64,000 nt of DNA. Source: Desulfobulbus sp. (GTDB lineage Bacteria; Desulfobacterota; Desulfobulbia; Desulfobulbales; Desulfobulbaceae). A program made the translations under genes and the position numbers. The DNA is taken from NCBI GenBank assembly GCA_031280615.1, contig JAITGO010000023.1:1-64000 (forward strand), in the 5' to 3' direction. The notes below the pieces were generated by a model. It did not search any database. It saw nothing but the letters and a program-made list of their open reading frames with translations, and was not told the origin of the DNA. The number at the start of each line of letters is the position of its first letter. The stretch's first letter is position 1. Below, piece by piece: positions 1 through 31,965 of the stretch.

Positions 1-7
1 GAAAACA

Positions 8-48
8 AAAAGGGCCAGAAGCCCCATAATGAGAATTCTGACCCTTTT
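8..48 (-). terminator. Rho-independent terminator ending the phage operon
   Basis: Positions 8-20 and 36-48 form a 13-bp inverted repeat with one mismatch. Read on the minus strand, the hairpin is followed by TTTTTGTTTTC. It overlaps the stop codon of the last phage gene, so it is the likely end of the minus-strand operon. Confidence 0.7.
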
Positions 49-365
49 CATGGCGCAACACACATCTTCCCGGTCGGTTCGGGATTGATCGAATGCGAAG
101 CAAAGGCATCGTCGCCGCACTGGCAGCGATAGCGTTGGGAATCAGGGTTGTATTGTTCGCCCAGGCAGGTGAAACGAAACAGGCCGTCACGGTCGGCGCA
201 GGACTTCTCACAGGCGGTCAGGTATTCCCGGCAGGGCTTCGCCGGTTTAGGACTGCGGCCGGTGATGCCACCGGGGGCCGAGGACGGAAAGCCGCCAGTG
301 GGTTCGGCTTGGGCCAGGGTGGGGTTGAGGATGCACAGCGACAGCAGGAAGATCAGGCTATACAT
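48..365 (-). CDS. Small secreted cysteine-rich protein of the phage module
   Basis: This 105-residue protein begins with a clear signal peptide (MYSLIFLLSLCILNPTLAQA). The mature part is rich in Pro and Gly at first and then carries seven cysteines (CREYLTACEKSC, CLGEQ, CQCGDD, CVAP), which suggests a disulfide-bonded periplasmic or virion-associated protein. Its start overlaps the end of the zot-like gene by 8 nt, so the two are probably translationally coupled, and a terminator sits on its stop codon. No family is recognised. A minor virion or assembly role is inferred from position only; it is too small to be a classic pIII adsorption protein. Confidence 0.7.
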   Translation of the reverse strand: MYSLIFLLSLCILNPTLAQAEPTGGFPSSAPGGITGRSPKPAKPCREYLTACEKSCADRDGLFRFTCLGEQYNPDSQRYRCQCGDDAFASHSINPEPTGKMCVAP

Positions 366-1206
366 GGCAGGCTCCGGGGCAGATGTTTTGATGGTAGTCG
401 TAGGTGATTGAGGATTCGGTAATAGCCTGGTGTTTTTCTCTCAGCTTTTCCGCTGCGGTTTTGTAGTATGACTGCGGATGCAAGCCGAGGTGCTCAAGGC
501 CGTATTCTTCTTCGTGGGCATCGTCCTTGAACAGCTTGAAGGTGTCGTAGAGGTCGCAGGTGTCGAAGTCCAGCTTGTAGGTGAAGCGCTCTTCGGTCAT
601 GCCTTTGAAGGTGCCTTCACCATTGACGATGGACTGAGTTGCGAAGCGGGGTTGCTTGTAGAAAAGGCCAAGCGAGACGCCGAGGATTTTCCGTTTCTGC
701 ATGTTCCGGCACCAAGTCACCAGGTCGACCTTGCCGCGGATCTGCTTGTCGATGTCCTCTGAGTTATGGGTCATGAAGATGGCTTGCACCTTGAACTTGC
801 GAATATTGATGAAATATTCGATAAATTGGTTGTTGCGGGCTCTTTGAAAATCGCGGGCATTGAAATATAAACTGGCTTCATCGAACACTTGCAGGCCCCA
901 CTCTTCCCTGGTCTCTGCCTGCCTGCCGGTGGCTTGTTGCGCGACCTGATTGGCAAACTCATAGCAGGATTGCACGGAGCCGAAGCGGTAGGCTCGTTCG
1001 TAATACTCCACGGCCCTGTCCAGAATTTGCTGTTCGGAAGCATAGGGCGGCAGGATGCGGGATGCGTATGTGATGGCCCATTCGTCGACCAGGGGGTAGT
1101 TCAGGCCGATGACGCCACCGCGCCGGAGGAACTTGAAGGCAATGGAATTGACAATGGCCGATTTGCCATTGCCCATGGAGCCGCAGAACATTTCAATGAC
1201 CGCCAT
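358..1206 (-). CDS. Zot/pI-like inovirus assembly ATPase
   Basis: The 282-residue product has a Walker A motif near the N-terminus (FCGSMGNGKSA, about residues 6-16), a Walker B-like segment (LQVFDEASLYF) and the sensor-like IFMTHN, as in Zot (zonula occludens toxin domain) proteins. These are the pI-type ATPases that extrude filamentous phage through the inner membrane. The ATG at 1206 is chosen because GGTGAG lies just upstream; an in-frame start at 1284 would overlap the preceding gene. Unlike typical pI/Zot proteins I see no strong transmembrane helix after the ATPase domain. The family call is good; whether it is functional is unknown. Confidence 0.85.
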   Translation of the reverse strand: MAVIEMFCGSMGNGKSAIVNSIAFKFLRRGGVIGLNYPLVDEWAITYASRILPPYASEQQILDRAVEYYERAYRFGSVQSCYEFANQVAQQATGRQAETREEWGLQVFDEASLYFNARDFQRARNNQFIEYFINIRKFKVQAIFMTHNSEDIDKQIRGKVDLVTWCRNMQKRKILGVSLGLFYKQPRFATQSIVNGEGTFKGMTEERFTYKLDFDTCDLYDTFKLFKDDAHEEEYGLEHLGLHPQSYYKTAAEKLREKHQAITESSITYDYHQNICPGACHV

Positions 1207-1210
1207 GATC

Positions 1211-1363
1211 TCACCTGAAGGACATGAAGCGGGAGAAGAGCCGCAAAGCGGCAATCGCGGCGATGACAGAGGCGAAAACGCCAAAGATACTCACCACCGC
1301 GATTGCCAGCCAGCCGGATGCTGCCGTGGCCATGTCAAGGTATGATATGACCGGCAAGCCCAT
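1211..1363 (-). CDS. Small phage membrane protein (50 aa)
   Basis: This 50-residue reading frame, MGLPVISYLDMATAASGWLA onward, has one long hydrophobic helix (about residues 15-40) and a basic C-terminal end (RLFSRFMSFR). It lies 2 nt after the coat-like gene and 4 nt before the zot-like gene, as minor coat or assembly genes do in filamentous phages. The helix, the basic tail and the packing between two supported genes are the evidence; there is no recognisable homology. Confidence 0.6.
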   Translation of the reverse strand: MGLPVISYLDMATAASGWLAIAVVSIFGVFASVIAAIAALRLFSRFMSFR

Positions 1364-1365
1364 GT

Positions 1366-1515
1366 TTAGCGCCCCGAGATGAGACGGCTGAACATGGAAA
1401 GGCCGACCTGGACACCTTTGATGGAACCATAGATGCCCATGCCGCCAGTGATTGCCAGGGCGACCATGGCGGTTACTTCGGTTGCTGCGGCCGTGAATTG
1501 TGCTGCGTTCAACAT
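1366..1515 (-). CDS. Probable major coat protein of an inovirus
   Basis: The 49-residue product has the usual pVIII layout: a short polar, Ala-rich N-terminal part (MLNAAQFTAAATEVTAM), one transmembrane segment (VALAITGGMGIYGSI) and a basic C-terminal part (KGVQVGLSMFSRLISGR). A strong ribosome site AAGGAGG lies 6 nt before the ATG, the best in the operon, as expected for the most abundant virion protein. No signal peptide is seen, which resembles inoviruses whose coat inserts without processing. The call is by architecture and synteny just ahead of zot, not by sequence identity. Confidence 0.65.
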   Translation of the reverse strand: MLNAAQFTAAATEVTAMVALAITGGMGIYGSIKGVQVGLSMFSRLISGR

Positions 1516-1561
1516 AATAGCCTCCTTGTGGAGTGTGGGTGGTTGAGGGCCGAGGCCCCGT

Positions 1562-1684
1562 TTACAGCCAGATAATGGATTTCAGGTAGTTGAGAACCAG
1601 GTGGTAACCAACGGCTGAAACCCAAATCAGTAGGCCGACCCCGAAGGACGATCCAAAAATGGCGATGAAATCGAACTCGTTCAT
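1562..1684 (-). CDS. Small phage membrane protein (40 aa)
   Basis: A 40-residue frame, MNEFDFIAIFGSSFGVGLLI onward, is almost entirely one or two hydrophobic segments. Its ATG overlaps the TGA of the preceding 50-residue gene (ATGA overlap), which supports translation by coupling. It is probably a minor virion or assembly protein of the filamentous phage module; no family is recognised. Confidence 0.55.
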   Translation of the reverse strand: MNEFDFIAIFGSSFGVGLLIWVSAVGYHLVLNYLKSIIWL

Positions 1685-1833
1685 GATCGGCCCAATCGTA
1701 TTTGCACGGTTGAGGCTACGATATTGGCCGCCAGCAGCCCGGCATTGATTGCCAGGAGGGTAGCGACCCAGTAGCCGATTGCTCTCAGCTCTTCGAGACG
1801 GGCGAAGAGGCCGAGCACGTCGTCAGGGGTCAT
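1681..1833 (-). CDS. Small phage membrane protein (50 aa)
   Basis: This 50-residue frame begins MTPDDVLGLFARLEELRAIG and continues with a hydrophobic helix (WVATLLAINAGLLAANIV). It overlaps its neighbours on both sides by ATGA junctions: its start with the stop of the ssDNA-binding-like gene, and its stop with the start of the 40-residue gene. Such chained overlaps are typical of filamentous phage operons. The function is inferred only from location. Confidence 0.55.
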   Translation of the reverse strand: MTPDDVLGLFARLEELRAIGYWVATLLAINAGLLAANIVASTVQIRLGRS

Positions 1834-2093
1834 GCCTGGGCAAAGCCGATCAATTTGCCGTCATAGAAGGTCGGGACGATCTTCATGGTGACGGGTTCCA
1901 TGATCACGTACTGCGATTTGTCCGTGCTGCCGGAAAGCTCCACCTGAAGGGAATTCGCGGCGCCGGGAACCATGATCAGCAGTTGGGTAATGATCTCGCC
2001 GGTGTTCTTTCGGGTGTACTGGCGGAATCCGTTGCACAGGCCGCGAATAACGAGGCCCAAATCTTTTCGCTGTTCAGTCGCTTTCTCACTCAT
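1830..2093 (-). CDS. Probable phage single-stranded DNA-binding protein (pV-like)
   Basis: The 87-residue protein (MSEKATEQRKDLGLVIRG...) looks like a compact beta-rich domain: VIRGLCNGFRQYTRK, EIITQLLIMVPGA, LQVELSGSTDKSQYVIM, VTMKIVPTFYDGKLIGFA. Its size, composition and place upstream of the coat and zot genes match helix-destabilising pV proteins of inoviruses, which coat the phage ssDNA before extrusion. Its start overlaps the preceding zinc-ribbon gene by 8 nt. Homology is not demonstrated; a structure prediction showing a five-stranded OB-like fold would settle it. Confidence 0.5.
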   Translation of the reverse strand: MSEKATEQRKDLGLVIRGLCNGFRQYTRKNTGEIITQLLIMVPGAANSLQVELSGSTDKSQYVIMEPVTMKIVPTFYDGKLIGFAQA

Positions 2094-2400
2094 TGTCTTT
2101 CCTCATGGTGTTGTGGTTGGTGGTACGGTTTTTCGGGGTCAACAGGATTGCAAAGCTGCCAACCACCTTGCCCCGGTCCGGTGGGACCAGGGCAAGGTGG
2201 TTGGCTCGGGAAACAGGGATTCGGCAAAGGCATTTCGGGCAAATCAGATTCTCGAAGTCACGGCCACGGGAAACGAGCAATGACAGTTGCGAGCGCGCCT
2301 TGCAGCGAGAGCAGATAATGACCGCGATTTCGCGGAGGGGGTATTTCTCGGGTCCAGCCAAGGATTCAAGTTCTGTCTGCTTCACGGCTTCTCGTTCCAA
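2086..2400 (-). CDS. Zinc-ribbon protein of the phage module
   Basis: The 104-residue product carries two CxxC pairs (CSRCKA and CPKCLC, about residues 30-57) spaced as a zinc ribbon, so it probably binds nucleic acid or protein. The start overlaps the end of the 66-residue membrane-protein gene and its own stop overlaps the ssDNA-binding-like gene. The C-terminal third is encoded across a large inverted repeat (2158-2205), so this tail may be shaped more by a DNA or RNA structure than by protein function. No named family is recognised. Confidence 0.55.
   Translation of the reverse strand: MEREAVKQTELESLAGPEKYPLREIAVIICSRCKARSQLSLLVSRGRDFENLICPKCLCRIPVSRANHLALVPPDRGKVVGSFAILLTPKNRTTNHNTMRKDNE
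2158..2205. repeat. 22-bp near-perfect inverted repeat, candidate phage packaging hairpin
   Basis: Arms 2158-2179 and 2184-2205 pair over 22 bp with a single mismatch (2174 against 2189) around a 4-nt loop. There is no T-tract on either side, so a terminator is unlikely. Filamentous phages use an imperfect hairpin in their ssDNA as packaging signal, and others serve as complementary-strand origins; this is the only such structure I see in the module. It lies inside the zinc-ribbon reading frame. Confidence 0.75.
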
Positions 2401-2582
2401 TCGATTGATTTGATGTCTTCCTTCGGGATGCCGAGGCTCCGGGCATAGAGTTTGGCGAACCGAGGAAAAAGGAGGACATGGAAACGGAGCAACAGGCCGA
2501 CAAGCTGGAGGTAGATCAGCAGGCCAAGACCCAGGTAGATAATAAAGAGGCCGAAAAGGATCAGGGCGTCGGTCAGGTTCAT
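2382..2582 (-). CDS. Small phage membrane protein (66 aa)
   Basis: A 66-residue protein with one or two hydrophobic helices (ALILFGLFIIYLGLGLLIY and QLVGLLLRFHVLLF) followed by a polar tail (YARSLGIPKEDIKSIDWNEK). GAGGA precedes the ATG. It sits in the leftward phage operon and overlaps the next gene. No family is recognised. Confidence 0.55.
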   Translation of the reverse strand: MNLTDALILFGLFIIYLGLGLLIYLQLVGLLLRFHVLLFPRFAKLYARSLGIPKEDIKSIDWNEKP

Positions 2583-2621
2583 GGGGTGTCCTCGTTTGCC
2601 AGGGTGGCGTTGTCGTAAAGG

Positions 2622-2906
2622 TTAAAACCGGATCAGTCGGTGGACCTGTTCGGTCAATATCTCTGCGGTCAGTTCCTGGAAGTCGGCGGTAAAGGCCGGG
2701 TCGATCCAGATTTCGCCTTGGCCGGTCACGATGGAAAAGCCGTTCTTCATGTCAGGGATTTGTTTATTTAGGGCCTGTTTCAGTTTCTGGAGGCGGTGCT
2801 CCGGGGTATCGAAACAGGGTGCGGGTACGGTCAGGATTTCCATGGTTTGGGTTCCGGGTTTCGAGTGGTTGAAGATGGATCGTGTCTTGGCAGTGTCAGC
2901 GATCAT
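2622..2906 (-). CDS. Phage-module protein of unknown function (94 aa)
   Basis: A 94-residue soluble protein with no signal or membrane segment. The start at 2906 has GAGG six nt upstream and overlaps the preceding gene by 11 nt, suggesting coupling; the later ATG at 2843 (MEILTVPAPC) is an alternative. No replication-protein motifs (HUH, Tyr) are visible. Its position early in the leftward operon would suit a DNA-handling or regulatory role, but that is only inference. Confidence 0.45.
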   Translation of the reverse strand: MIADTAKTRSIFNHSKPGTQTMEILTVPAPCFDTPEHRLQKLKQALNKQIPDMKNGFSIVTGQGEIWIDPAFTADFQELTAEILTEQVHRLIRF

Positions 2907-3168
2907 GGACAGCCTCGCTTGGCGGAGCTTGAGCAGGTAACGAATCGTGAGTGGCGGGAAGGCTGGGAGACGCGGGCGTTTGGCTCAATCGGTCGTCAAT
3001 TTTTAAAAAGAGCTTGCAAAGGAGCCGAAACGACACGAACAGCAAAAAGGCGAAGAGCGCCAGACCTATCACGATGAAAGCGAAAGTGAAAAAGGCTTGG
3101 AAAACGAGGTAGACGACGTCCAGGTCGACGAGACCGAAAAACGTGGTGCAAGGTTCTGTTCTAGGCAT
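2896..3168 (-). CDS. First gene of the phage operon, small membrane protein
   Basis: From the ATG at 3168 (CTGGAG six nt before it) the product is 90 residues with a long hydrophobic stretch (VVYLVFQAFFTFAFIVIGLALF, continuing LFVSFRLL) and a polar, Pro/Ser-rich C-terminus. An upstream in-frame ATG at 3219 has no good ribosome site. It is the first gene downstream of the divergent promoter region shared with the repressor gene. No family is recognised. Confidence 0.5.
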   Translation of the reverse strand: MPRTEPCTTFFGLVDLDVVYLVFQAFFTFAFIVIGLALFAFLLFVSFRLLCKLFLKIDDRLSQTPASPSLPATHDSLPAQAPPSEAVHDR

Positions 3169-3249
3169 GTTGTCTCCAGGGCTTGGGGTGTAGGTTGTTG
3201 GGTGTGGGGTTGGTTCCAAGTGCTGATCAATGCGGCATGACTAAAAAAT

Positions 3250-3316
3250 ATCCGTTATCGGATTAATATATGGAGTATCGGATAATGTCAACGGAAAAAT
3301 ATCGCCCTTCGGATAA
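3250..3316. promoter_or_regulatory. Candidate operator cluster between repressor and phage operon
   Basis: A perfect palindrome ATCCG-TTAT-CGGAT lies at 3250-3263. The half-site CGGAT(A/T)A recurs at 3279-3285 and at 3310-3316, inside the start of the repressor gene. The spacing and placement between divergent genes suit binding by the phage-type repressor at 3285. A related ATCCGATAAG lies near 3778 and a GTTATC-T-GATAAC palindrome at 4825-4837. Confidence 0.5.
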
Positions 3317-3716
3317 CGGTATAGGAGAAAGGCTTTTATTTTACAGGAAAATGCTACAGAAAAGCGGTGTTGAATTTTCGAATATCATAGGAATATCACA
3401 AGGATCACTGTCGGATATCGAGCGAGGCAAAACGAAGCCATCAGTCAAGGCATTAATTGGATTAATCCAAAGAACCGACATCGATATAAGATGGTTACTA
3501 ACTGGCGAGGAACCCAAGAGACAAGCTGATCTTATTGACCATTTCTCATTTTACGAAGAACTCGAACAGTGGGCGAGGGAAACGGGCCGATCCGAGAATA
3601 CGCAGTGGATGCGCAACCAAATCGAAAGCTTTTTTCCAATGTTTACAGAATGGAAAAAGAGAAGGGCGGAAGGGGATGAGGATACGCCTAGACACCCAGC
3701 GTCGAAAATAGCATAA
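3285..3716 (+). CDS. Phage-type HTH repressor
   Basis: The 143-residue protein has an N-terminal XRE/CI-type helix-turn-helix (IGERLLFYRKMLQKSGVEF, IIGISQGSLSDIERGKTKP, then KALIGLIQRTDIDIRWLLTG; residues about 12-76) and a helical, charged C-terminal half that may dimerise. The ATG at 3285 is chosen because GGAG lies nine nt before it; the ATG at 3270 has none. It is divergent from the phage operon with operator-like repeats between, so it probably represses that operon and its own promoter, as CI-like proteins of inovirus prophages do. Confidence 0.75.
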   Translation: MSTEKYRPSDNGIGERLLFYRKMLQKSGVEFSNIIGISQGSLSDIERGKTKPSVKALIGLIQRTDIDIRWLLTGEEPKRQADLIDHFSFYEELEQWARETGRSENTQWMRNQIESFFPMFTEWKKRRAEGDEDTPRHPASKIA

Positions 3717-3879
3717 TTGGATGTGAGGAAAAATGCTTATGTCGTTTCAGTTGAGCGATGGCAAGGGAAACTAGGTCGATCCGATAAGGGACGAGGGAAG
3801 GTGGTGACAAACCTGAAACCCATCATTTAAGAGTGGCATGATGGTGGACAACAGGCCAGAGAGAAGAAAAGGAGGAGCC

Positions 3880-4818
3880 GTGATTGAAAAGAACGATGGC
3901 GGCACAAACACGTATAGAAAAGCTGATGCTCTTTTTACAAAAGCCGAAAAAATTTTTCTTGATGTGCTAGAAGATGCCGTAGGTGATCAATTCACAATAA
4001 ACGGAAAAACACGCCTTGCGGATATAGTGACGGTCGATCATATTTCATGTCAAAGGGAAAAGAGAATAGCATTTAACAAAATAAAAGCAAAACATATAGA
4101 TTATTTGTTATGCAACAAAAAAGACAAATCTCTCGTTTGCGGAATAGAGCTTAACGATAGTACACACAATAGAAAAGATAGGCAGGATAGAGACATTTTT
4201 GTTAATGATGTTTTTGAAGAGATTTCATTGCCTCTTGTGATGATAAAATGGCAAAATAACTATTCAGTCGATGAGGTGCGACAAATAATATTTAACGCTA
4301 TAAAATACGAGCAAAATGAGCAAAATATCAAAACTGAAGATATAAAAATACCAGAATCGAAAAATTATAAATACAAGAAGATAAATAGATACAGAAAAGT
4401 ATCAATAATAAGCACAATAAAATCACGCTTTACTTTTGAAGTAAAATTACAACTTCTAGTATTTGCAATAATTTTCGTTGCGATGAGTGTATTTACATGG
4501 ACTTCATCCAATGTATTCAAAAACTTTTCGGAGTCAAACAGAGCCAAAACACAAACCGGCGTCCAGAGCAAAATGCAACCGACACAAATCGAACCTGCGC
4601 CATTCAAAGCGCCTTATGAGCCACAAAGAAAACAAATGACAGATACGGCAAATGAAATGGGCAATTTTCGACAAGCAGGGCCAGGGGGAAGAGAGGCAAA
4701 GAGAAGAGTGGAAAGGCAAACAATCTACAGCTGGATAAACGAAAAGGGTAACAGAGTTTATTCAAACACGGGTTTCCCGGAAGGCCGTAAATATACCGAT
4801 CCAAGGATTGATCAATAA
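3880..4818 (+). CDS. DUF2726 nuclease-like domain fused to a membrane helix and DUF4124-like end
   Basis: From the GTG at 3880 (GGAGGAG just upstream; the ATG at 3838 has no ribosome site) the product is 312 residues. The N-terminal half resembles DUF2726, a PD-(D/E)XK-type domain: an acidic helix (FTKAEKIFLDVLEDA), then HIDYLLCN and CGIELNDSTHN with the E-x-N/D position, and the closing VMIKWQ. A single transmembrane helix follows (LLVFAIIFVAMSVFTW, about 200-216), then a Gln/Lys/Arg-rich linker, and a C-terminal segment (YSWINEKGNRVYSNTGFP) like the DUF4124 motif of exported proteins. GC content is far below the flanking genome. Possibly a membrane-tethered defence or nuclease protein; function unproven. 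Confidence 0.6.
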   Translation: MIEKNDGGTNTYRKADALFTKAEKIFLDVLEDAVGDQFTINGKTRLADIVTVDHISCQREKRIAFNKIKAKHIDYLLCNKKDKSLVCGIELNDSTHNRKDRQDRDIFVNDVFEEISLPLVMIKWQNNYSVDEVRQIIFNAIKYEQNEQNIKTEDIKIPESKNYKYKKINRYRKVSIISTIKSRFTFEVKLQLLVFAIIFVAMSVFTWTSSNVFKNFSESNRAKTQTGVQSKMQPTQIEPAPFKAPYEPQRKQMTDTANEMGNFRQAGPGGREAKRRVERQTIYSWINEKGNRVYSNTGFPEGRKYTDPRIDQ

Positions 4819-4824
4819 CGGGAC

Positions 4825-4837
4825 GTTATCTGATAAC
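4825..4837. promoter_or_regulatory. Palindromic operator-like site
   Basis: GTTATC-T-GATAAC is a perfect 6-bp palindrome with one central base, in the AT-rich gap ahead of the 141-residue gene. It resembles the CGGATAA half-sites near the repressor and may be another site for it. Confidence 0.35.
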
Positions 4838-4923
4838 TTTAATATATTATTGCAAGACCAAATAATAATTACATCAATAAAGAATAAACAGTTAAATTAA
4901 AATTTAAACCATATTTATTCAAT

Positions 4924-5349
4924 ATGAATCAAGGTAAAATTGAAAAAAAAGATATAATTGAAAAAGAGATGTCATCGGTAAGTGAAAAAATCAAACACAG
5001 AATAGAGGTGTTTCGCAGGGAAGGTATACTTTTATTTGCAATATCTGTTGGATCTGCAAGTATTAGCCATGTAATTTTTAAAAATTTATCTCTTCTTATT
5101 GCTTTTTCAATTTTTATTAGCGGTATATTTATCGGAAAAAATGATAGAGAAGATCTTGAAGCAACTATAAATTCGATAGAGAAAAAAATAGATCAATTCA
5201 ATGATGATGAATATTGGTATAGAGAAAGAATTTGTGAGATTGAAATATTAAAGAAAAAGTTGTCATGTCGAGGTATTATAACAAATAATTGGATATATTT
5301 TGTTTGTTGTTTGTTCTGGATAACGCTTTTCTTCGTCAAAACAAATTGA
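4924..5349 (+). CDS. AT-rich membrane protein of unknown function in the island
   Basis: The 141-residue protein starts with a charged helix (IEKKDIIEKEMSSVSEKIKH), then two hydrophobic segments near residues 36-68 (ILLFAISVGSASISHVIF, LSLLIAFSIFISGIFIG), a coiled-coil-like acidic region (EDLEATINSIEKKIDQF) and a last transmembrane helix (WIYFVCCLFWITLFFV). The gene is about two-thirds A+T, quite unlike the chromosome, so it is recently acquired cargo. No family is recognised. Small membrane proteins of this layout occur among toxins and abortive-infection effectors, but nothing here proves it. Confidence 0.55.
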   Translation: MNQGKIEKKDIIEKEMSSVSEKIKHRIEVFRREGILLFAISVGSASISHVIFKNLSLLIAFSIFISGIFIGKNDREDLEATINSIEKKIDQFNDDEYWYRERICEIEILKKKLSCRGIITNNWIYFVCCLFWITLFFVKTN

Positions 5350-5464
5350 TCACCATATTGAAATATATAACCGCGCAAATGCGCTTTTTAATGCGCTCTT
5401 GACCGCGCCTGTGACCGAAAAACGAGCTGCCTGGCCAATAAAACCTCGAAAGGAAACGTGCGAA

Positions 5465-5513
5465 TCGGCCTTTCACGTCGGCAACACCGGTTCAAATCCG
5501 GTTGGGGACGCCA
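5465..5513 (+). other. 3' half of tRNA-Glu(TTC), attachment-site scar of the island
   Basis: The stretch matches the second half of a bacterial tRNA-Glu. The anticodon stem is 5465-5469/5477-5481 with loop CTTTCAC (anticodon TTC). The T-arm is 5486-5502 with loop TTCAAAT. The 3' acceptor strand TGGGGAC is followed by discriminator G and CCA at 5511-5513. No matching 5' half (it should begin GTCCCCA) lies upstream; AT-rich island DNA is there instead. This is the usual footprint of integration into a tRNA 3' end, so it marks the island's right boundary, with the restored tRNA expected left of the window. Confidence 0.75.
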
Positions 5514-5520
5514 GATAAAA

Positions 5521-5560
5521 AACAGGGATTAGCTCGGCTGAGCTAATCCCTGTTTCTGTT
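5521..5560 (+). terminator. Terminator of the host tRNA-Glu locus
   Basis: A perfect 15-bp inverted repeat (5521-5535 and 5540-5554) around GGCT is followed by a T-rich tract. It lies 7 nt after the tRNA-Glu CCA end and is probably the original terminator of the tRNA gene, retained on the chromosomal side of the insertion. Confidence 0.8.
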
Positions 5561-5599
5561 TTGGGGCTTCAGGGGCTTTGTTCTAAAATTTTCCCCCGG

Positions 5600-5656
5600 G
5601 CAAAAAAGAAAACCCGCTGACGGCTTGAGAGTTTCTCGTTGCCATAACAGCGGGTT
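5600..5656 (-). terminator. Rho-independent terminator of ssrA
   Basis: AACCCGCTG at 5611-5619 pairs with CAGCGGGTT at 5648-5656. Read on the minus strand, the hairpin is followed by TTTTCTTTTTT. It begins 9 nt beyond the tmRNA 3' end. Confidence 0.8.
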
Positions 5657-5664
5657 GCAATAAA

Positions 5665-6022
5665 TGGTGGAGGCGCCGGGAGTTGAACCCGGGTCCGAAA
5701 ATTCTCCCCTCGTGTCTCTACATGCGTAGTTCCGGGATTAAATCTCGCATCCGCTTCTCACCCGGAACAGGGATAGTCGGTTGCCAGCCTGAAAAATCTC
5801 GTCATCCGTGCCCCAGGCGTTCACGGACAACCAGCCTGAGAAGTCGACGCTCCGAATCCGGCCTTACAGGCGAAAGCCGGTGGAACGGCATGGCAGGTTA
5901 AGCTGCCAGTGCGTAATTATAATCGTCTGCGATTATATTTAATTCCGCCAATTTTACGAGCTGACAGAAACTCGGCATGCAACAACAAGCTTCAATATCC
6001 CCGTCGAATCCGTTTCGCCCCC
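5665..6022 (-). ncRNA. ssrA: tmRNA
   Basis: On the minus strand the RNA begins GGGGGCGAAACGGATTCGAC at 6022, the conserved tmRNA 5' end, and finishes GTTCAACTCCCGGCGCC-TCCACCA at 5665. The ends form a 7-bp acceptor stem, and the T-arm is present. The tag frame resumes at GCA and encodes ADDYNYALAA followed by TAA. It tags proteins on stalled ribosomes for proteolysis together with SmpB, whose gene lies directly upstream on the same strand. The length is about 358 nt, normal for one-piece tmRNA. Confidence 0.95.
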
Positions 6023-6063
6023 ATCGGTGTGCGTCAAAGGTGATGAGCCGGCAGCATAAGGAA

Positions 6064-6519
6064 TCAGTCGTCATGGCGCATGGAGCGTTCCATTTCCCGA
6101 TTCGATTCCCTTTCCTTGAGCGCCGCCCGTTTGTCGTAGAGTTTCTTGCCGCGGGCCAAGGCCAGTTCGACCTTGGCTTTCCCATTTTCAATAAAATAAA
6201 TCTTGAGTGGGATCAGCGCAATGCCTTTCTCGTGGAGCTTGCCGATGAGCTTGCGGATCTCGCGCCGATGCATCAGCAGCTTCCGGACCCGAAGAGGGTC
6301 CTGGTCGATATGGGTGGCATAAGAGTAGGGCGAAATGTGGACATTGTGCAGAAAAACCTCGCCGTCCTTGAGCTGGGCATAGCCGTCGCGAAGATTCACC
6401 TTGCCGGCCCGCAGCGACTTGACCTCCGGCCCGCTGAGCACCATGCCGGCCTCGAAGGTCTGCTCGATATGGTAGTCGTGGAAGGCCTTTTTGTTTTTGC
6501 TGACGATTTTCTGTCCCAT
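6064..6519 (-). CDS. smpB: SsrA-binding protein SmpB
   Basis: The 151-residue protein matches SmpB over its whole length: [19 protein letters not shown] and [19 protein letters not shown] at the N-terminus, then [29 protein letters not shown] and [19 protein letters not shown] near the end. It binds tmRNA's tRNA-like domain and delivers it to stalled ribosomes. It lies 41 nt upstream of ssrA on the same strand, a common pairing. The length is standard. Confidence 0.97.
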
Positions 6520-6593
6520 GCTTCGCCAATCGCTCCTTGTTCCCGTTTCGCCGTCACACTATAGGGCGTGTTGGCCCGAACGCCAGAAAAAAG

Positions 6594-8423
6594 TCATCCC
6601 GCTTCGGTTTCTCCGGTTACCCGCAGCACCTCTTCCACCGTGGTCAGCCCGGCCAAAACCTTCCGCCAGGCATCCTCGCGCAAAGTAGTCATGCCTTCCC
6701 GGATGGCCACCTGTCGCAGTTCCAGGCCGTTGGCCTTGGCGGCGATCAGCTTTTTTATCTGGTCCGACATCGGGAACACCTCGAAAATTCCGATCCGGCC
6801 TAAGTAGCCGGTATTGCGGCACTGGAGACATCCCTTGCCCTTCTTTAGCTCGACCAACTCCTGGTTGCCGACCGGAAAGCCGAGTTTGCGCAGACCCGCG
6901 CCATCCACCTTGTAAGGCTCGATGCAGTGGGGGCAGTTGCGCCGCACCAGTCGCTGGGCCAGGGCGCCCAGCATGGTCGAGGCGATGAGAAAGGGCTCGA
7001 GCCCCAGATCTTGCAGACGGACGATGGTCGAGACCGCGTCGTTGGTGTGGAGGGTGGAGAACACCAGGTGTCCGGTCAGGGCCGCCTGAACGGCATGGGT
7101 GGCGGTTTCCAGATCGCGGATTTCGCCGATCATGATCACGTCCGGGTCCTGGCGCAGGATGTTGCGTAGGATGGTGGAGAAGGTGACGTCGATCTGCGAT
7201 TGCACCGCGATCTGGTTGAAATCCTCGTGGACCATTTCCACCGGATCCTCGACGGTGACGATATTTTTTTCCGGCGAGGCGATCTGCTTAAGGGTGGAGT
7301 ACAAGGTGGTCGATTTGCCGCTGCCGGTCGGGCCGGTGACCAGGACGATGCCGTGGGCGGCGGTCATGAAGCTGTTGAAAACGATCCTGTCCCGTCGGGC
7401 AAAACCGAGATGATCCAAATCTTGGAAGATGACTTCGGGATTGAGAATACGCATTACCGCCTTCTCGCCAAAGGCGACCGGAACGGTGGAGATACGGAGT
7501 TCCGCGTCGCTGCCTTCGGCCTGGTGGCCGATCTTGATCCGGCCGTCCTGGGGCCGCCGTTTCTCGGCAATGTCCATTCGCGCCAGGCTTTTGATCCGCG
7601 AGACAATGGCGGCATGTACAGCCTTGGGCAGTTTGTAGATGGTGTGCAGAACACCGTCGATCCGGAACCGGACCAGGCAGCTGTCGCGCTTGGGCTCGAT
7701 GTGGATGTCGCTGGCCCTTTGCTCCAAGGCGTACACGAACAGGTGATTGACCGCCGCCTTGATGTGCTGATCCGTGGAACTCAGTTCCTTGGTCGTGGCC
7801 AGGCGCACGTATTGCTCGAGGTTGCCGATGTCGACGGTGGCAGAGGAGCCGCTGCTGACGAACTGGGACTCGGCGGCCGTGATCGAGCGCTGGAAGCCGA
7901 AAAATTCGGCCAGGATCTTCTTGATGTCGGTCCTGGTGGACAAAAACGGCCGGACCTTGACCTGGTTGACCCGCTCGATATCCTCGAGCACCGGATGAAT
8001 ATCGGGGTGATAGGTGACGATGTCGAGGATGCCGTTGTTGAGGCCCACGGGCAGGATCAGGTGGTTGACGGCAAAGGACCGGGGGATCGTCTTGGTGACC
8101 GTGTCCATGTCCAGTTCGAGGGGATCGAGCTTCTTGAAGGGAATCTTGAGGGCGTGGCTGACGGCCTGGATGATTCTCTCTTCGGTCACCGGACCGGGCG
8201 TCGGTCCGGCGCTCTCCAACTCGAGCGAAACGACGATGTCCACCATGTCGGGGAAACCTCTGTCCCGCTTGTTTTCCTCTTCTTGCCGCCGGACGCCTTG
8301 CTGCTTGAGCAGTTTCTGCCGTTGCCGCCCCTTGTGCAGGAGAATCAATTTCCGCTGTTCGGCGGAAAGCAACCGCTCTTTGACAAGGACATCCAACAGG
8401 GTATCGCTATTGAGGAAGGACAT
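6594..8423 (-). CDS. GspE/PilB-family secretion or pilus-assembly ATPase
   Basis: The 609-residue protein has an N-terminal MshEN/T2SSE-N-type region, then the secretion-ATPase core: Walker A GPTGSGKSTTLYSTL near residue 365, the Asp box (VTVEDPVE), Walker B (IMIGEIRDLETA), the His box (LVFSTLHTND) and a tetra-cysteine zinc site (CPHC and CLQC). It powers assembly of a type II secretion pseudopilus or type IV pilus at the inner membrane. No other pilus or secretion gene is adjacent, so the partner system is unknown and GspE versus PilB cannot be decided. ATG 8423 is taken; a GTG two codons earlier is possible. Confidence 0.9.
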   Translation of the reverse strand: MSFLNSDTLLDVLVKERLLSAEQRKLILLHKGRQRQKLLKQQGVRRQEEENKRDRGFPDMVDIVVSLELESAGPTPGPVTEERIIQAVSHALKIPFKKLDPLELDMDTVTKTIPRSFAVNHLILPVGLNNGILDIVTYHPDIHPVLEDIERVNQVKVRPFLSTRTDIKKILAEFFGFQRSITAAESQFVSSGSSATVDIGNLEQYVRLATTKELSSTDQHIKAAVNHLFVYALEQRASDIHIEPKRDSCLVRFRIDGVLHTIYKLPKAVHAAIVSRIKSLARMDIAEKRRPQDGRIKIGHQAEGSDAELRISTVPVAFGEKAVMRILNPEVIFQDLDHLGFARRDRIVFNSFMTAAHGIVLVTGPTGSGKSTTLYSTLKQIASPEKNIVTVEDPVEMVHEDFNQIAVQSQIDVTFSTILRNILRQDPDVIMIGEIRDLETATHAVQAALTGHLVFSTLHTNDAVSTIVRLQDLGLEPFLIASTMLGALAQRLVRRNCPHCIEPYKVDGAGLRKLGFPVGNQELVELKKGKGCLQCRNTGYLGRIGIFEVFPMSDQIKKLIAAKANGLELRQVAIREGMTTLREDAWRKVLAGLTTVEEVLRVTGETEAG

Positions 8424-28506: not shown

Positions 28507-29874
28507 TCAACATCCTTCTAAAAGATATTTTCTGTATTTGACGGCCTTGCGCTCCCGGACACGCTCGTCTCTGCTGAGTTGTCGATCCAGCGACTCCAAC
28601 AATGCCTTGGTTTGCTCAATTTCCCTGAGCAGTTTGTGGTTGCTGGTACTCAGCGCCCGCAAACTGCTCAGGCTGTCCGCCAGTGTTCGGCGGGCCAAGA
28701 CCACGTCGCCGCGTTCCACCGCTTCCGTTGCCCGTGCTCTGGTATATTGGGCCTCGAAAATCCGTGAACGTTCGGACACCTCCCGATTGCGCCCTTCCTC
28801 GATGGCGGTTCCCGGCGAGACATAGGCAAGCTGGATCGGCATGTCCTGGTGCTCCTCCCGTTCGACTCCCGGGATACGATAGTTCATGCGAAGGGTCCCG
28901 ATCGACCGCATGCCTTCCGGGAGCGACGGCGCTTCGAACCGGATTTGAATCCGCCGCCGTTCACCCACCGGAATGTCGCCAGCCTGAATGACCAGCTCAT
29001 CGTCATACTGTTGAAAACTGTTGGCGAACACCTCGGCGACCCGTACCCCGGCTTGCCAGTGCAGTGTCAGGCGAACATCTCTGGCGGCGAGTTGCCGCGT
29101 GGCATTGAACTCCTTGGTCAGCATGGTCTCAACATGGCGGGGATCGTCGATAAAATAGTACATGCCCCGGCCGCGTTCCGACAGATCGGCCATCAGGTCT
29201 TCGTTGAAATCCAACCCTACCCCGAAGGTGGAGAGGGAAACCCGCTCCTGAGCCTGGTGTTCCGCCATGGCTGTCAACTGGCGAGGATCGGTGATCCCGA
29301 TATTGGCCAGCCCATCCGAAAGGAGCAGCACCTTGTTGACCGCATTCGGCCGCACTCCGGCCCGCACCTGGCGATATCCTTCGGCCAGCCCGCCTCCGAG
29401 ATTGGTGCTGCCTCCCGGCGTGATGCCGTCGATCAGCTCCTCCACGCGACGGGGATCCAGGTCTGCAGAGGAAGGCATCAGCACCTGCACTCGATCATCG
29501 TAGGCGATCAGTGAGAACTGGTCGCCGGGCTGCAGGCGCCAGACCATTTCCTTGGCAGCGGCTTTGACCAGATCGAGTTTTCTGTTGCTGGCCATTGAGC
29601 CGGAACGGTCGATAACGAGAGCAATGTTAAGCGGCAATGCTTGCAACTGCGCCTCCCGGTCTGGCGGAGACGCCGTTTGGACCAACAGTTCGAGGAAACG
29701 TGTCCCGGACCGGGAAATATCGACCTGGGGGTTGTCGAAGGCAATCTGCAGGGAAACCGGTGTATCGGCCAGGGATAGGGGCGGTCGGAAACATGAAAAA
29801 GCAAGCAACAGGCCTGCGATTGCGGCTCTCAAAACTGTTTTCGCAAATACTCTTGGTTGGGCGTACGGGTTCAT
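28507..29874 (-). CDS. Secreted von Willebrand A-domain protein ending in LEGC
   Basis: The 455-residue protein has a signal peptide (RAAIAGLLLAFSCFRPPLSL, cleavage near LADT), a vWA domain with an intact MIDAS (VIDRSGSMASN, GGSTNLGGGL, LLLSDGLANIG), a beta-rich middle region and a long basic/acidic helical C-terminal region. It ends RKYLLEGC. ATG 29874 follows AGGAGG; a longer frame upstream lacks support. The same last four residues end two other proteins across the intergenic region (30144 and 31465). The architecture is close to YfbK-like vWA proteins, but the tail is unlike them. Role: metal-dependent adhesion or scaffold in the periplasm or at the surface (inferred). Confidence 0.85.
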   Translation of the reverse strand: MNPYAQPRVFAKTVLRAAIAGLLLAFSCFRPPLSLADTPVSLQIAFDNPQVDISRSGTRFLELLVQTASPPDREAQLQALPLNIALVIDRSGSMASNRKLDLVKAAAKEMVWRLQPGDQFSLIAYDDRVQVLMPSSADLDPRRVEELIDGITPGGSTNLGGGLAEGYRQVRAGVRPNAVNKVLLLSDGLANIGITDPRQLTAMAEHQAQERVSLSTFGVGLDFNEDLMADLSERGRGMYYFIDDPRHVETMLTKEFNATRQLAARDVRLTLHWQAGVRVAEVFANSFQQYDDELVIQAGDIPVGERRRIQIRFEAPSLPEGMRSIGTLRMNYRIPGVEREEHQDMPIQLAYVSPGTAIEEGRNREVSERSRIFEAQYTRARATEAVERGDVVLARRTLADSLSSLRALSTSNHKLLREIEQTKALLESLDRQLSRDERVRERKAVKYRKYLLEGC

Positions 29875-30143
29875 GGGTTCCTCCTGATTGCACGATGTGC
29901 GGACCGATGAGATACCGGCCCTGTTGCTCGTAAGATAGCCGAGGTGGCCACGAACACAGCGCCACATCCATGGACATCCATTGCGGTCGTGGTTGGGCGT
30001 GGCCGTATCTCTTGCGCCGAGATGGCCTGGAATCCGCCAGCTCAATTGATGTGGGTTGATGTCCGGTTTTCAGGGAAGCAAGGGCGAGGTAATGTCGAGT
30101 CAACAGGGCAATGATGCCCGACAAACACCAGGAGGATACCCAG

Positions 30144-30386
30144 ATGAAAACGAAGAACTTGTGGTGGACTGCCCCGATTTTGGTACTGGCCCTGGCAAGC
30201 CTTGGCTATGCGCAGTATGTCAAGGGGTACAAGGTGAGCGCGGTCGCCGCCGAACAGGTGGAGATCGTAACGCCGCAGGGCGACACGCTGGTCGTTCCGG
30301 ACCGCTCCGGGAAGTATACCAAGGGAGACAAGGTGGAATATGACGCCCAGAAAAATAAAATCAGACCCACGCTGGAAGGGTGCTGA
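30144..30386 (+). CDS. Small secreted protein (80 aa) ending in LEGC
   Basis: An 80-residue product with a signal peptide (MKTKNLWWTAPILVLALASL, cleavage after GYAQ or nearby) and a roughly 57-residue mature domain of short beta strands (VKGYKVSAVAAEQVEIVTPQ, GDTLVVPD, GDKVEYDAQKNKI), perhaps an OB- or SH3-like barrel. It ends RPTLEGC with a C-terminal cysteine. AGGAGG lies 8 nt before ATG 30144. It is divergent from the vWA gene and 92 nt upstream of the HTH regulator gene. No family is recognised. Confidence 0.75.
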   Translation: MKTKNLWWTAPILVLALASLGYAQYVKGYKVSAVAAEQVEIVTPQGDTLVVPDRSGKYTKGDKVEYDAQKNKIRPTLEGC

Positions 30387-30478
30387 CAAGCACCTGCGCG
30401 CAGCACCCTGACCGGACGGCAATGCTTTTTTCAGGCGCAACATTGTGTAGCCCTTCGGAGTTATGCTAGGCTGCAACC

Positions 30479-31450
30479 ATGGAAAACGAGAACATCCTTT
30501 TTGTTGACGGGAAAAAGCTGCGCCGGGTCAGGGAACAACGGAAGGTTACCCAACTGTTTTTAGCCACGGCGGTGTCGGTGTCCACCGAAACCATCTCGCG
30601 GTGGGAAAACAATCGCGTGCCCACCATCAAGCGGGAGAACGCCCTCAAGCTTGCCGAGGTGCTGGAGGTGGGGCTGGAAGAGCTGGTCCGAACGAATGAG
30701 CCCGAACGCGGGGAAATATCCGATAACGAAGCCGAGAAAAAGGGGGGCCCGCTGCGCCGGGCCGCCACGGTGCGCCACCTTGCTCTCTGGATGGGAGGCA
30801 TACTGCTGGGGCTCGGTTGCGTGCTCTTGTTTTTCTTGATCCGGCCTGTTGGGGGGAAACCGGCTGCCGGGGAAATCCGGGCCATGCGGCAGCTGCCTCA
30901 CAATACTCTTCCCGGGCGGCCTTTTCCGGTAGTGATCAAGATCGAAGCGCCTGCCGGCATCGGCGCCTTCATGCTCCGCGAAACACCGCCGCCGGGTTGC
31001 ACGGTTGTCCGGGTGACGCCTCCGATCGTGGATGGCGAGGGCACGGCGTCCTCCCCGCTGAAATGGGTGCTGCCAGGGGAGCAGTCACGGCCTCTCGTCG
31101 TCCGGTATCTCGTCATTCCGGGAGCGGAATCCACCGGCCAGCGATTGCCTTTTGCCGGCACCTTGGTCACCAGCCGACGTGGAGCCCTGGAACCTGTGGT
31201 GGAGGGAGTGGCAATGGTTGCGGTTTCGGCATATCACTGGGCGGATGAGAACTGCGACCATCGAATTGACGACTATGAGATCCTTTCGGTGATCGAGCGC
31301 TTTCCCGATGGAAACCTTCACGGCATCGATTTGGATGAGATCAGGGCAATATGGGCCGGGCAGGGATATCGTTGGCACGACGAAAGCGGTCAATTGGAAA
31401 TTATCGGACAGGCAGGCACGGAAACCGGTGGGGGGCAACAACGGCCATGA
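30479..31450 (+). CDS. Membrane-spanning HTH regulator with beta-sandwich and dockerin-like ectodomain
   Basis: The 323-residue protein has a cytoplasmic XRE-type HTH (LRRVREQRKVTQLFLATAVS, SVSTETISRWENNRVPTI; residues 13-65), one transmembrane helix (LALWMGGILLGLGCVLLFFL, about 101-120), a periplasmic beta-sandwich (about 140-250) and a C-terminal calcium-loop segment (ADENCDHRIDDYEILSVIER, canonical DxNxDxxIDxxE, then a weaker second motif), as in dockerin repeats. Its beta-sandwich resembles the next protein (shared PPI...KW...PGE pattern). It probably senses an extracytoplasmic ligand and controls neighbouring genes directly. It is the only member of the cluster not ending in LEGC. Confidence 0.75.
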   Translation: MENENILFVDGKKLRRVREQRKVTQLFLATAVSVSTETISRWENNRVPTIKRENALKLAEVLEVGLEELVRTNEPERGEISDNEAEKKGGPLRRAATVRHLALWMGGILLGLGCVLLFFLIRPVGGKPAAGEIRAMRQLPHNTLPGRPFPVVIKIEAPAGIGAFMLRETPPPGCTVVRVTPPIVDGEGTASSPLKWVLPGEQSRPLVVRYLVIPGAESTGQRLPFAGTLVTSRRGALEPVVEGVAMVAVSAYHWADENCDHRIDDYEILSVIERFPDGNLHGIDLDEIRAIWAGQGYRWHDESGQLEIIGQAGTETGGGQQRP

Positions 31451-31464
31451 AGGAGATGAGATCC

Positions 31465-31965
31465 ATGGGAGAACAGGGAACAAGCCGGACTGCGGCGATG
31501 CGACGATGGATTTTTCCTCGTGTCCTTTCCCGGTTGCCAACAATGTGCCTGGCGGGAGGGTGGCTCGTTGTCGGGGTTCTTCTATGCGTTGGCGCCGCTT
31601 CCCTGTCGCTGGCCCGGGAAGTGGAGGGCACGTATCGCCACCGGGACGATACCATCCAGTTGCGGGTGATCGTGCCGGAGGAAAAACCCGCGGCGGTCAT
31701 TGTCATCCAATATCTTCCGCCTCTCACGAAGATTATCGAGGCGAAGCCACCGATCAGCAATTACGCACCTGAGACCGGGGTCGTGAAGTGGCTGTTCAGC
31801 GATGTTCGGCCCGGTGAGCTGATCATGCAATTGCAATTAGGCGCGCCAGTGGACAGTAAGGATGTGAAAGCGGAAGTGTTGTTTTTAGACGGTTCCGGGC
31901 AGAGCAGTTCCTATTTTTTGGATACGCCCCGCCCCATGAAGCGACGGGGCTTGGAGGGCTGCTAG
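31465..31965 (+). CDS. Exported beta-sandwich protein (166 aa) ending in LEGC
   Basis: The 166-residue product has an N-terminal hydrophobic signal or anchor (MCLAGGWLVVGVLLCVGAAS, cleavage possible after SLA-R) and a beta-sandwich domain similar to the regulator's ectodomain (IIEAKPPISNYAPETGVVKW, then VRPGELIMQLQL). It ends PMKRRGLEGC. ATG 31465 has AGGAG (31451-31455) nine nt upstream. The gene starts 14 nt after the regulator's stop, so the two are co-transcribed. Family not recognised. Confidence 0.75.
   Translation: MGEQGTSRTAAMRRWIFPRVLSRLPTMCLAGGWLVVGVLLCVGAASLSLAREVEGTYRHRDDTIQLRVIVPEEKPAAVIVIQYLPPLTKIIEAKPPISNYAPETGVVKWLFSDVRPGELIMQLQLGAPVDSKDVKAEVLFLDGSGQSSSYFLDTPRPMKRRGLEGC

Follow-up and report, generated by a model that had tools for sequence, protein, structure and literature searches.

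The stretch analysed here, referred to as the window, comprises positions 1 to 64,000 (64,000 nucleotides) of contig JAITGO010000023.1 in a Desulfobulbus sp. assembly (GCA_031280615.1), and contains at 28507-31965 a cluster of four genes in which three exported proteins end in the same residues, Leu-Glu-Gly-Cys (LEGC). The first gene (28507..29874, minus strand, ATG at 29874) encodes an exported protein of 455 residues with a vWA domain (PF00092, E 2.4e-18), which ends in KYRKYLLEGC followed by TGA (LEGC codons 28510-28521, stop 28507-28509) and contains no cysteines other than Cys28, in the signal region, and Cys455. The second gene (30144..30386, plus strand) encodes P2, a small exported protein of 80 residues ending in KNKIRPTLEGC-TGA (LEGC codons 30372-30383), of which the last residue is the only cysteine. 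P2 is weakly related to ExtJ, scoring 26.5 bits (E 6e-6) against the ExtJ family NF040942, where the cut-off is 52.5 bits, so that by score it is not a member; its predicted model is a small beta fold of five strands with a predicted local distance difference test (pLDDT) value of 73.6, the mean being about 74 over the last ten residues. Next comes a membrane-spanning XRE-type helix-turn-helix (HTH) protein (30479..31450, plus strand; PF01381, E 5e-11), which is untailed and contains an extracytoplasmic immunoglobulin (Ig)-like region and an EF-hand/dockerin-like stretch. The fourth gene (31465..31965, plus strand) encodes an exported Ig-like protein of 166 residues that matches no Pfam family and ends in MKRRGLEGC-TAG (LEGC codons 31951-31962); its cysteines are residues 28 and 41, both in the signal region, and 166. 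The predicted model of this protein is a beta sandwich (pLDDT 75.5) with a last block of about 51, i.e., a loose tail. A fold search with the P2 and Ig-like models returned no solved relative at E 0.001 or better. Re-reading of the sequence thus agrees with the initial annotation, which had reported the three LEGC ends (KYRKYLLEGC, IRPTLEGC and KRRGLEGC) and the differences among their codons and stops.

Ends of this type are rare in the window and in its genome, and they occur on proteins that look exported. Among the 344 open reading frames (ORFs) of at least 60 residues in the window, only three end in Gly-Cys, namely the vWA, P2 and Ig-like proteins. The pattern YTNGARGGNTGYTRR has five matches in the 3.4 Mb assembly, compared with two for a control in which the pattern is read backwards, and each of the five lies at the end of an ORF whose product looks exported (N-terminus judged by eye). 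As bare DNA the looser pattern GARGGNTGYTRR is not enriched (11 matches versus 17 for the control); five of its 11 matches end ORFs of at least 50 residues with a start codon, the same five found with YTNGARGGNTGYTRR, and the other six lie in short or start-less frames. Besides the three proteins of the window, the five ORFs encode a 61-residue ExtJ-family protein (L001; L and G numbers are our handles for loci and genomes) that ends in KKALEGC and is a member of NF040942 with 54.6 bits, and an Lpp-like lipoprotein (L002) that ends in KKKLEGC. Two vWA paralogues of the same genome are untailed. Summed over 23 genomes of the genus, a pattern that also accepts Phe and Trp codons gives 60 matches versus 15 for its control.

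A set of 80 loci selected solely by their HTH-membrane gene, and thus without bias toward tails, gives a rate beyond this genome. The initial annotation had noted that a coincidental tail would occur at background rate; in these loci, Glu-Gly-Cys (EGC) ends 50 ORFs spread over 41 loci, while the next commonest end of the form xxC occurs in four ORFs and control triplets in none to two. Of the 39 loci with no tail, several lie on contigs that are cut and ten are the full set of Geomonas/Geobacter loci. Homologues in the 80 loci were counted among complete ORFs only, and the queries lacked their last 14 residues to prevent selection by the tail itself. EGC ends four of four vWA homologues, 25 of 28 ExtJ/P2-like proteins, five of 16 cytochromes and eight of 52 Ig-like proteins. 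The corresponding counts in 40 other HTH loci, 16 of which hold an EGC end, are 1/1, 6/7, 5/8 and 2/27, respectively, some genomes occurring in both sets. Conservation in homologues, which had been proposed as a check, is therefore borne out for the vWA and ExtJ/P2-like proteins but not for the Ig-like family, which as a whole does not keep the tail, most tailed Ig-like homologues being those closest to the protein in the window. Across 55 genomes, vWA homologues include no tailed ORF besides the window's own, which indicates that the vWA family in itself does not include the tail. The counts with cut queries strengthen the view of the tail as a module, without shifting the odds among the explanations considered below. 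Its occurrence on some homologues and absence from others of the same gene indicates that this module is gained and lost, being conserved where it occurs but no fixed element of these families. Untailed homologues retain the remainder of the sequence, which is more easily reconciled with a tag for localisation than with a thiol used in catalysis.

The best matches of the HTH protein among named relatives, in a Desulfobulbus metagenome-assembled genome (MAG; 47% identity), D. rhabdoformis (43%) and Desulfogranum japonicum (37%), place the window in or near Desulfobulbus, class Desulfobulbia. In these relatives the tails are found with changed residues. P2 and the Ig-like protein of the MAG (L223) end in KDFEGC and KRRQMEGC, respectively; the vWA and Ig-like proteins end in KYKKYLLEGC and KRKMLEGC in D. 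rhabdoformis (L224), and in SYVIEGC and KRRAIEGC in D. japonicum (L225). Two further MAGs (L226, L294) have the HTH gene followed in each case by four tailed genes. Tailed rows aligned with the window's proteins share 20-41% (P2), 31-42% (Ig-like) and 35-45% (vWA) identity with them, and their fourth-last residue varies, mostly within hydrophobics. These alignments (A2, A3 and A4, with 12, 9 and 5 sequences) were drawn from EGC-ended ORFs, and the invariance of EGC in them is thus by construction. One ExtJ-like protein (L275, 4557-4859) ends in KRKADAGC, with Gly-Cys and the basic run kept and the Glu lost.

The tail consists of a Lys/Arg run, usually an Ala or Lys, one hydrophobic residue and Glu-Gly-Cys at the very C-terminus. 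From the motif LEGC, as originally formulated, EGC stands as the invariant part; the Leu does not, as the fourth-last position accepts Leu, Ile, Val, Met, Phe or Tyr and Leu is a preference of this genus. In 146 tails, 3.4 of the nine residues preceding EGC are Lys or Arg, never none, and Asp or Glu average 0.2. Fifty tails from the 80 HTH loci are written in 23 distinct codon strings and followed by TGA in 28 cases, TAA in 12 and TAG in 10. Such free variation of codons and stops means that the tail is kept at the protein level and is not a DNA repeat, as had been proposed from the window alone. It also rules out selenoprotein read-through past the Cys, for which the stop would always be TGA. 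The Cys is the last encoded residue, with nothing downstream of EGC and no membrane helix of the PEP-CTERM or LPXTG type, in agreement with the initial annotation. When cysteines past the signal region are counted with the tail included and haem CxxCH motifs excluded, 115 of 146 tailed ORFs, lipoproteins pooled with the others, have an odd number (92 have three and 20 have one) and 31 an even number. In most tailed ORFs one pair is thus possible, with the tail Cys left over. A crude export rule is passed by 146 of 151 tailed ORFs, a figure to be read against the 29% of 4000 sampled ORFs that also pass and against the fact that many of the loci behind it were picked for holding tails.

Beyond the cluster, the tail is carried by at least seven kinds of exported-looking protein bodies, judged unrelated from family searches or from inspection. 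ExtJ is present in 125 of 144 genomes of the class, and in the 30 best-scoring loci it always ends in [I/L/V]EGC after Lys. Tails also occur on tetraheme class III cytochromes (e.g., L204, PF02085 E 1e-10, ending in KKNKAVEGC), a monoheme cytochrome (L325, by eye), a BON/OsmY-like protein (L135, NF007858 E 1e-28, under the cut-off), a BON-like lipoprotein (L324, by eye), alanine-zipper lipoproteins, Glu/Pro-rich lipoproteins and Lys/Ala-rich small exported proteins. Across 395 genomes of the phylum, the strict pattern KKx[hydrophobic]EGC-stop occurs 25 times, in 18 genomes, and its control never, although many tails escape it (e.g., G004 and G022, two genomes of the same genus as the window, yield no match). 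Exported-looking ORFs account for 22 of the 25 matches and short frames for the other three (L303, L304, L311); good matches outside the class come from families f42, f69, f78, f79 and f96. In f42, neighbouring genes have a common longer end, AGAKKKVEGC. A small lipoprotein found in two f42 genomes (L328, 9214-9492; L335, 15-266) ends in EKK in one and in AGAKKKVEGC in the other, and the latter is the tail of a neighbouring gene in the EKK genome, an apparent transfer of the tail. The comparisons establish, at the level of sequence, a modular tail of [hydrophobic]EGC after a basic run that is kept as protein on exported-looking proteins of several folds.

Such a tail looks like a new kind of tag. 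The initial annotation knew of no described signal of this form, and no description of the EGC tail was found in open-licence papers of PubMed Central (PMC), a search that most subscription papers lie outside. PEP-CTERM tags carry a membrane helix that is removed by a protease or transpeptidase. The same is described for LPXTG and MYXO-CTERM tags in PMC11980579. As in the PEP-CTERM/exosortase (PMC1569441) and LPXTG/sortase (PMC11980579) systems, a short C-terminal tag occurs on many exported proteins and in some genomes only, but the EGC tail has no helix, no basic cluster after it and a different motif, and belongs to neither. The nearest in idea is MYXO-CTERM/myxosortase. According to PMC11980579, this C-terminal tag of exported proteins has an invariant Cys, for which lipidation has been proposed, and after it a transmembrane helix and a cytoplasmic end rich in Arg; MrtX cleavage is proposed distal to the Cys, so that the mature protein would also end at Cys. 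In contrast, genes with an EGC tail stop at the Cys and the basic residues precede it, which sets them outside MYXO-CTERM. The vWA protein scores 68.6 bits against TIGR03788 (marine proteobacterial sortase target), over residues 64-272 only, far from the cut-off of 551.65. Two tailed lipoproteins (L002, E 6e-6; L119, E 4e-6) match the Lpp/OprI alanine-zipper family NF040598 weakly and under the cut-off; in E. coli Lpp the C-terminal Lys is bound to peptidoglycan, whereas these proteins end in EGC. A polybasic run beside a C-terminal Cys is also found in eukaryotic Ras-type lipid anchors, which are cytoplasmic and undergo CaaX processing, and a short free C-terminal tag in the SKL peroxisomal signal; both belong to another kingdom and serve as analogies only. 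ExtJ itself is described in PMC5877670 as a small Geobacter protein of a function not known, encoded in the extHIJKLMNOPQS selenite/tellurite cluster together with the rhodanese-like ExtH. The tail is common to the ExtJ family (NF040942, selenite/tellurite reduction operon protein) but not confined to it.

The reading preferred here, somewhat short of an even chance, is that the tail is a modular C-terminal tag for proteins beyond the inner membrane, of which the Cys thiol is attached or modified, most probably by S-linked lipid anchoring. In this model, the basic run would dock on the anionic periplasmic face of the membrane, one common envelope factor would recognise the free C-terminal EGC, and the Cys thiol would serve as the attachment point, the likeliest outcome being a protein anchored at its C-terminus by an S-linked lipid. 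With the Cys as the last encoded residue, this would be equivalent to a MYXO-CTERM end that can do without membrane helix and cleavage. The HTH-membrane protein may act as an envelope sensor that regulates the tagged cluster. The broader proposal of a general bacterial thiol-tag system, in which dedicated envelope machinery would read free basic-[hydrophobic]-EGC ends on folded, exported proteins and attach these covalently via the Cys to a lipid or another structure of the envelope, without helix or proteolysis, comes close to an even chance. Among the class-genome cytochromes fetched, those of six genomes are tailed (G024, G032, G058, G075, G086, G093), and in all six ExtJ is matched with E 2.8e-13 or lower (51.6 bits in G058, cut-off 52.5). 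Those of three are untailed: G171, with no ExtJ, and G064 and G076, with weak ExtJ matches (4.5e-8 and 6.6e-4). In the named set 11 cytochromes are untailed, among them those of three Geomonas genomes with an ExtJ ending in LQGC and of two Geomonas/Geobacter genomes with no ExtJ match; two distant untailed cytochromes (L172, L189) adjoin a tailed ExtJ-like gene. G019, of the same genus as the window, on one contig and 99% complete, has no ExtJ, HTH protein or methyltransferase. This would fit a tag with dedicated machinery, but is only suggestive.

Several observations weigh against a thiol attachment tag. Some tagged proteins are already N-terminal lipoproteins (L002, L139 and others), to which a second lipid would add nothing unless it joins two structures; this is the strongest point against simple lipid anchoring and in favour of cross-linking or bridging. 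In the 80 HTH loci, 44 of 52 Ig-like proteins and 11 of 16 cytochromes are untailed, partly in loci with another tailed protein, and untailed ExtJ-like paralogues exist (L188, L352, L353). One cytosolic-looking protein of family f1 (L130) ends in KKIVLEGC. A lipobox follows the rule [hydrophobic]-x-[G/A/S]-C, with uncharged residues upstream and in an N-terminal signal peptide; the Gly-Cys of the tail fits this rule, but the Glu at -2, the Lys/Arg upstream and the C-terminal place break it. None of the ten Geomonas/Geobacter HTH loci has an EGC end, and Geomonas ExtJ has an acidic end, GDELQGC, with no basic run (six ORFs in five genomes; L341-L345, L350), so that Gly-Cys at the terminus may predate the basic run. 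Among 30 of 41 matches to QGC ends from four Geomonas/Geobacter genomes, no protein other than ExtJ has an export-type start, which speaks against a parallel QGC tag in these genera. The search for an enzyme is also unfavourable. The initial annotation had proposed asking whether tailed exported proteins of related genomes co-occur with one conserved processing or membrane enzyme; the tailed proteins were found, but in 13 neighbourhoods, mostly outside the class, the genes common to different families are by eye only housekeeping ones (e.g., ribulose-phosphate epimerase in L329 and L336-L338). Lgt (PF01790) is single in the window's genome, occurs once or twice in other tail-bearing genomes and is present in the tail-less G019, so that there is no dedicated Lgt here and a second Lgt as the tail enzyme is unsupported.

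The proximity of the HTH-membrane gene to tailed genes is conserved. Homologues of its product occur in 99 of the 144 class genomes, often with an Ig-like gene, mostly untailed, after the HTH gene, and divergent from the latter there is often a tailed ExtJ-like gene or a tetraheme cytochrome with or without a tail. ExtJ in turn is accompanied by a methyltransferase (Methyltransf_16, PF10294, E 4e-21) whose nearest solved structure by sequence is METTL21A. Among the matches listed, this METTL21-like gene lies, by eye, within 2 kb of ExtJ in 28 of 30, and in one it is on another contig. In a table of the 144 genomes with G171, the one genome unlisted for the enzyme, entered as methyltransferase-negative, 116 have both genes, nine ExtJ only, seven the enzyme only and 12 neither (Fisher p 9e-8, ignoring kinship and linkage); as an obligatory partner of the tail the methyltransferase is rejected, being correlated but not strict. 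A TlpA/Redoxin gene is found near the main ExtJ in eight of 11 loci of 20 kb, and sirC, ccsA and hemA, named by eye from sequence, are close. Desulfobulbia ExtJ loci (L159, L170, L174, L177 and others) have the order TlpA-ExtJ-(UppP)-METTL21-like methyltransferase-sirC-ccsA-hemA. A protein-lysine methyltransferase adjoining a Lys-rich exported protein is an odd pairing.

The same evidence bears on other explanations. That the shared ends are a coincidence or a copied DNA end has a negligible probability: bare EGC-stop DNA is indeed not enriched in the genome and f42 neighbours do have a longer end in common, but enrichment at ORF ends, conservation and codon variety speak otherwise, and the rate in HTH loci, the phylum pattern (25 versus 0), the counts with tail-less queries and the codon diversity in our view rule it out. 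Methylation of the basic run before export by the METTL21-like protein would give the close linkage with ExtJ and their joint presence a meaning, and is nevertheless quite improbable, as nine genomes have ExtJ but no methyltransferase, G064 and G076 have the methyltransferase yet an untailed cytochrome, and a lysine mark accounts for neither EGC nor the Geomonas end. A C-terminal secretion signal, read non-covalently for outer-membrane export or by a chaperone, as Pex5 reads SKL, would need the Cys for recognition only. The exact position of the motif at the free C-terminus agrees with such a signal, as does EGC being the usual end of the vWA and ExtJ-like homologues found by tail-less queries; it is rather unlikely, however, since there is no receptor candidate and the clients include likely periplasmic cytochromes and lipoproteins.

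Two further alternatives share with the preferred reading a working thiol. If the tail were a cross-linking tag, tail thiols would join by disulfides or thioethers, to each other or to one scaffold, in an envelope network. This gains from the last residue being the sole Cys outside the signal region in the window's P2, vWA and Ig-like proteins, from the grouping of tags in one cluster (L226, L294) and from the tail on N-terminally anchored lipoproteins, but disulfides alone need no invariant Glu-Gly ahead of the Cys in unrelated bodies and these organisms are strict anaerobes, which leaves it no likelier than a secretion signal. A reactive thiol carrier, with the Cys as a swinging arm that moves sulfur, selenium or reducing power and TlpA-type thioredoxins as partners, is a little less improbable than either, although still doubtful. 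It agrees with the TlpA/Redoxin genes and with ccsA, sirC and hemA near ExtJ, with the Geobacter selenite/tellurite cluster and its rhodanese-like ExtH (PMC5877670), and with the terminal Gly-Cys that ExtJ keeps even when the basic run is lost. However, a carrier should not be dispensable in homologues, and it would not be expected on vWA proteins, alanine-zipper lipoproteins, BON proteins and cytochromes alike.

If a thiol attachment tag is the right reading, envelope proteins would be placed or modified in a new manner, through a soluble tag that has no helix and terminates in Cys and that is common to cytochromes, the selenite-cluster family, vWA proteins and lipoprotein bodies in the Desulfobulbia and their relatives. 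ExtJ, so far unexplained, would gain a class, and the tail provides a search handle for a putative modifying enzyme.

Some minor features of these loci are of separate interest. Homologues of the HTH-membrane protein (alignment A1) have a conserved HWAD...D.E.L stretch that by eye is dockerin/EF-hand-like, and the weak fold matches of the Ig-like protein include cohesins, among others; the two proteins could possibly form a cohesin-dockerin-like sensor pair. A group II intron-like reverse transcriptase ORF, recognised by eye, lies near an ExtJ/HTH locus (L164, 6506-7831). Within the window, positions 1-8000 have a G+C content of 0.49-0.53, compared with 0.57-0.66 in the remainder, and are perhaps acquired DNA.

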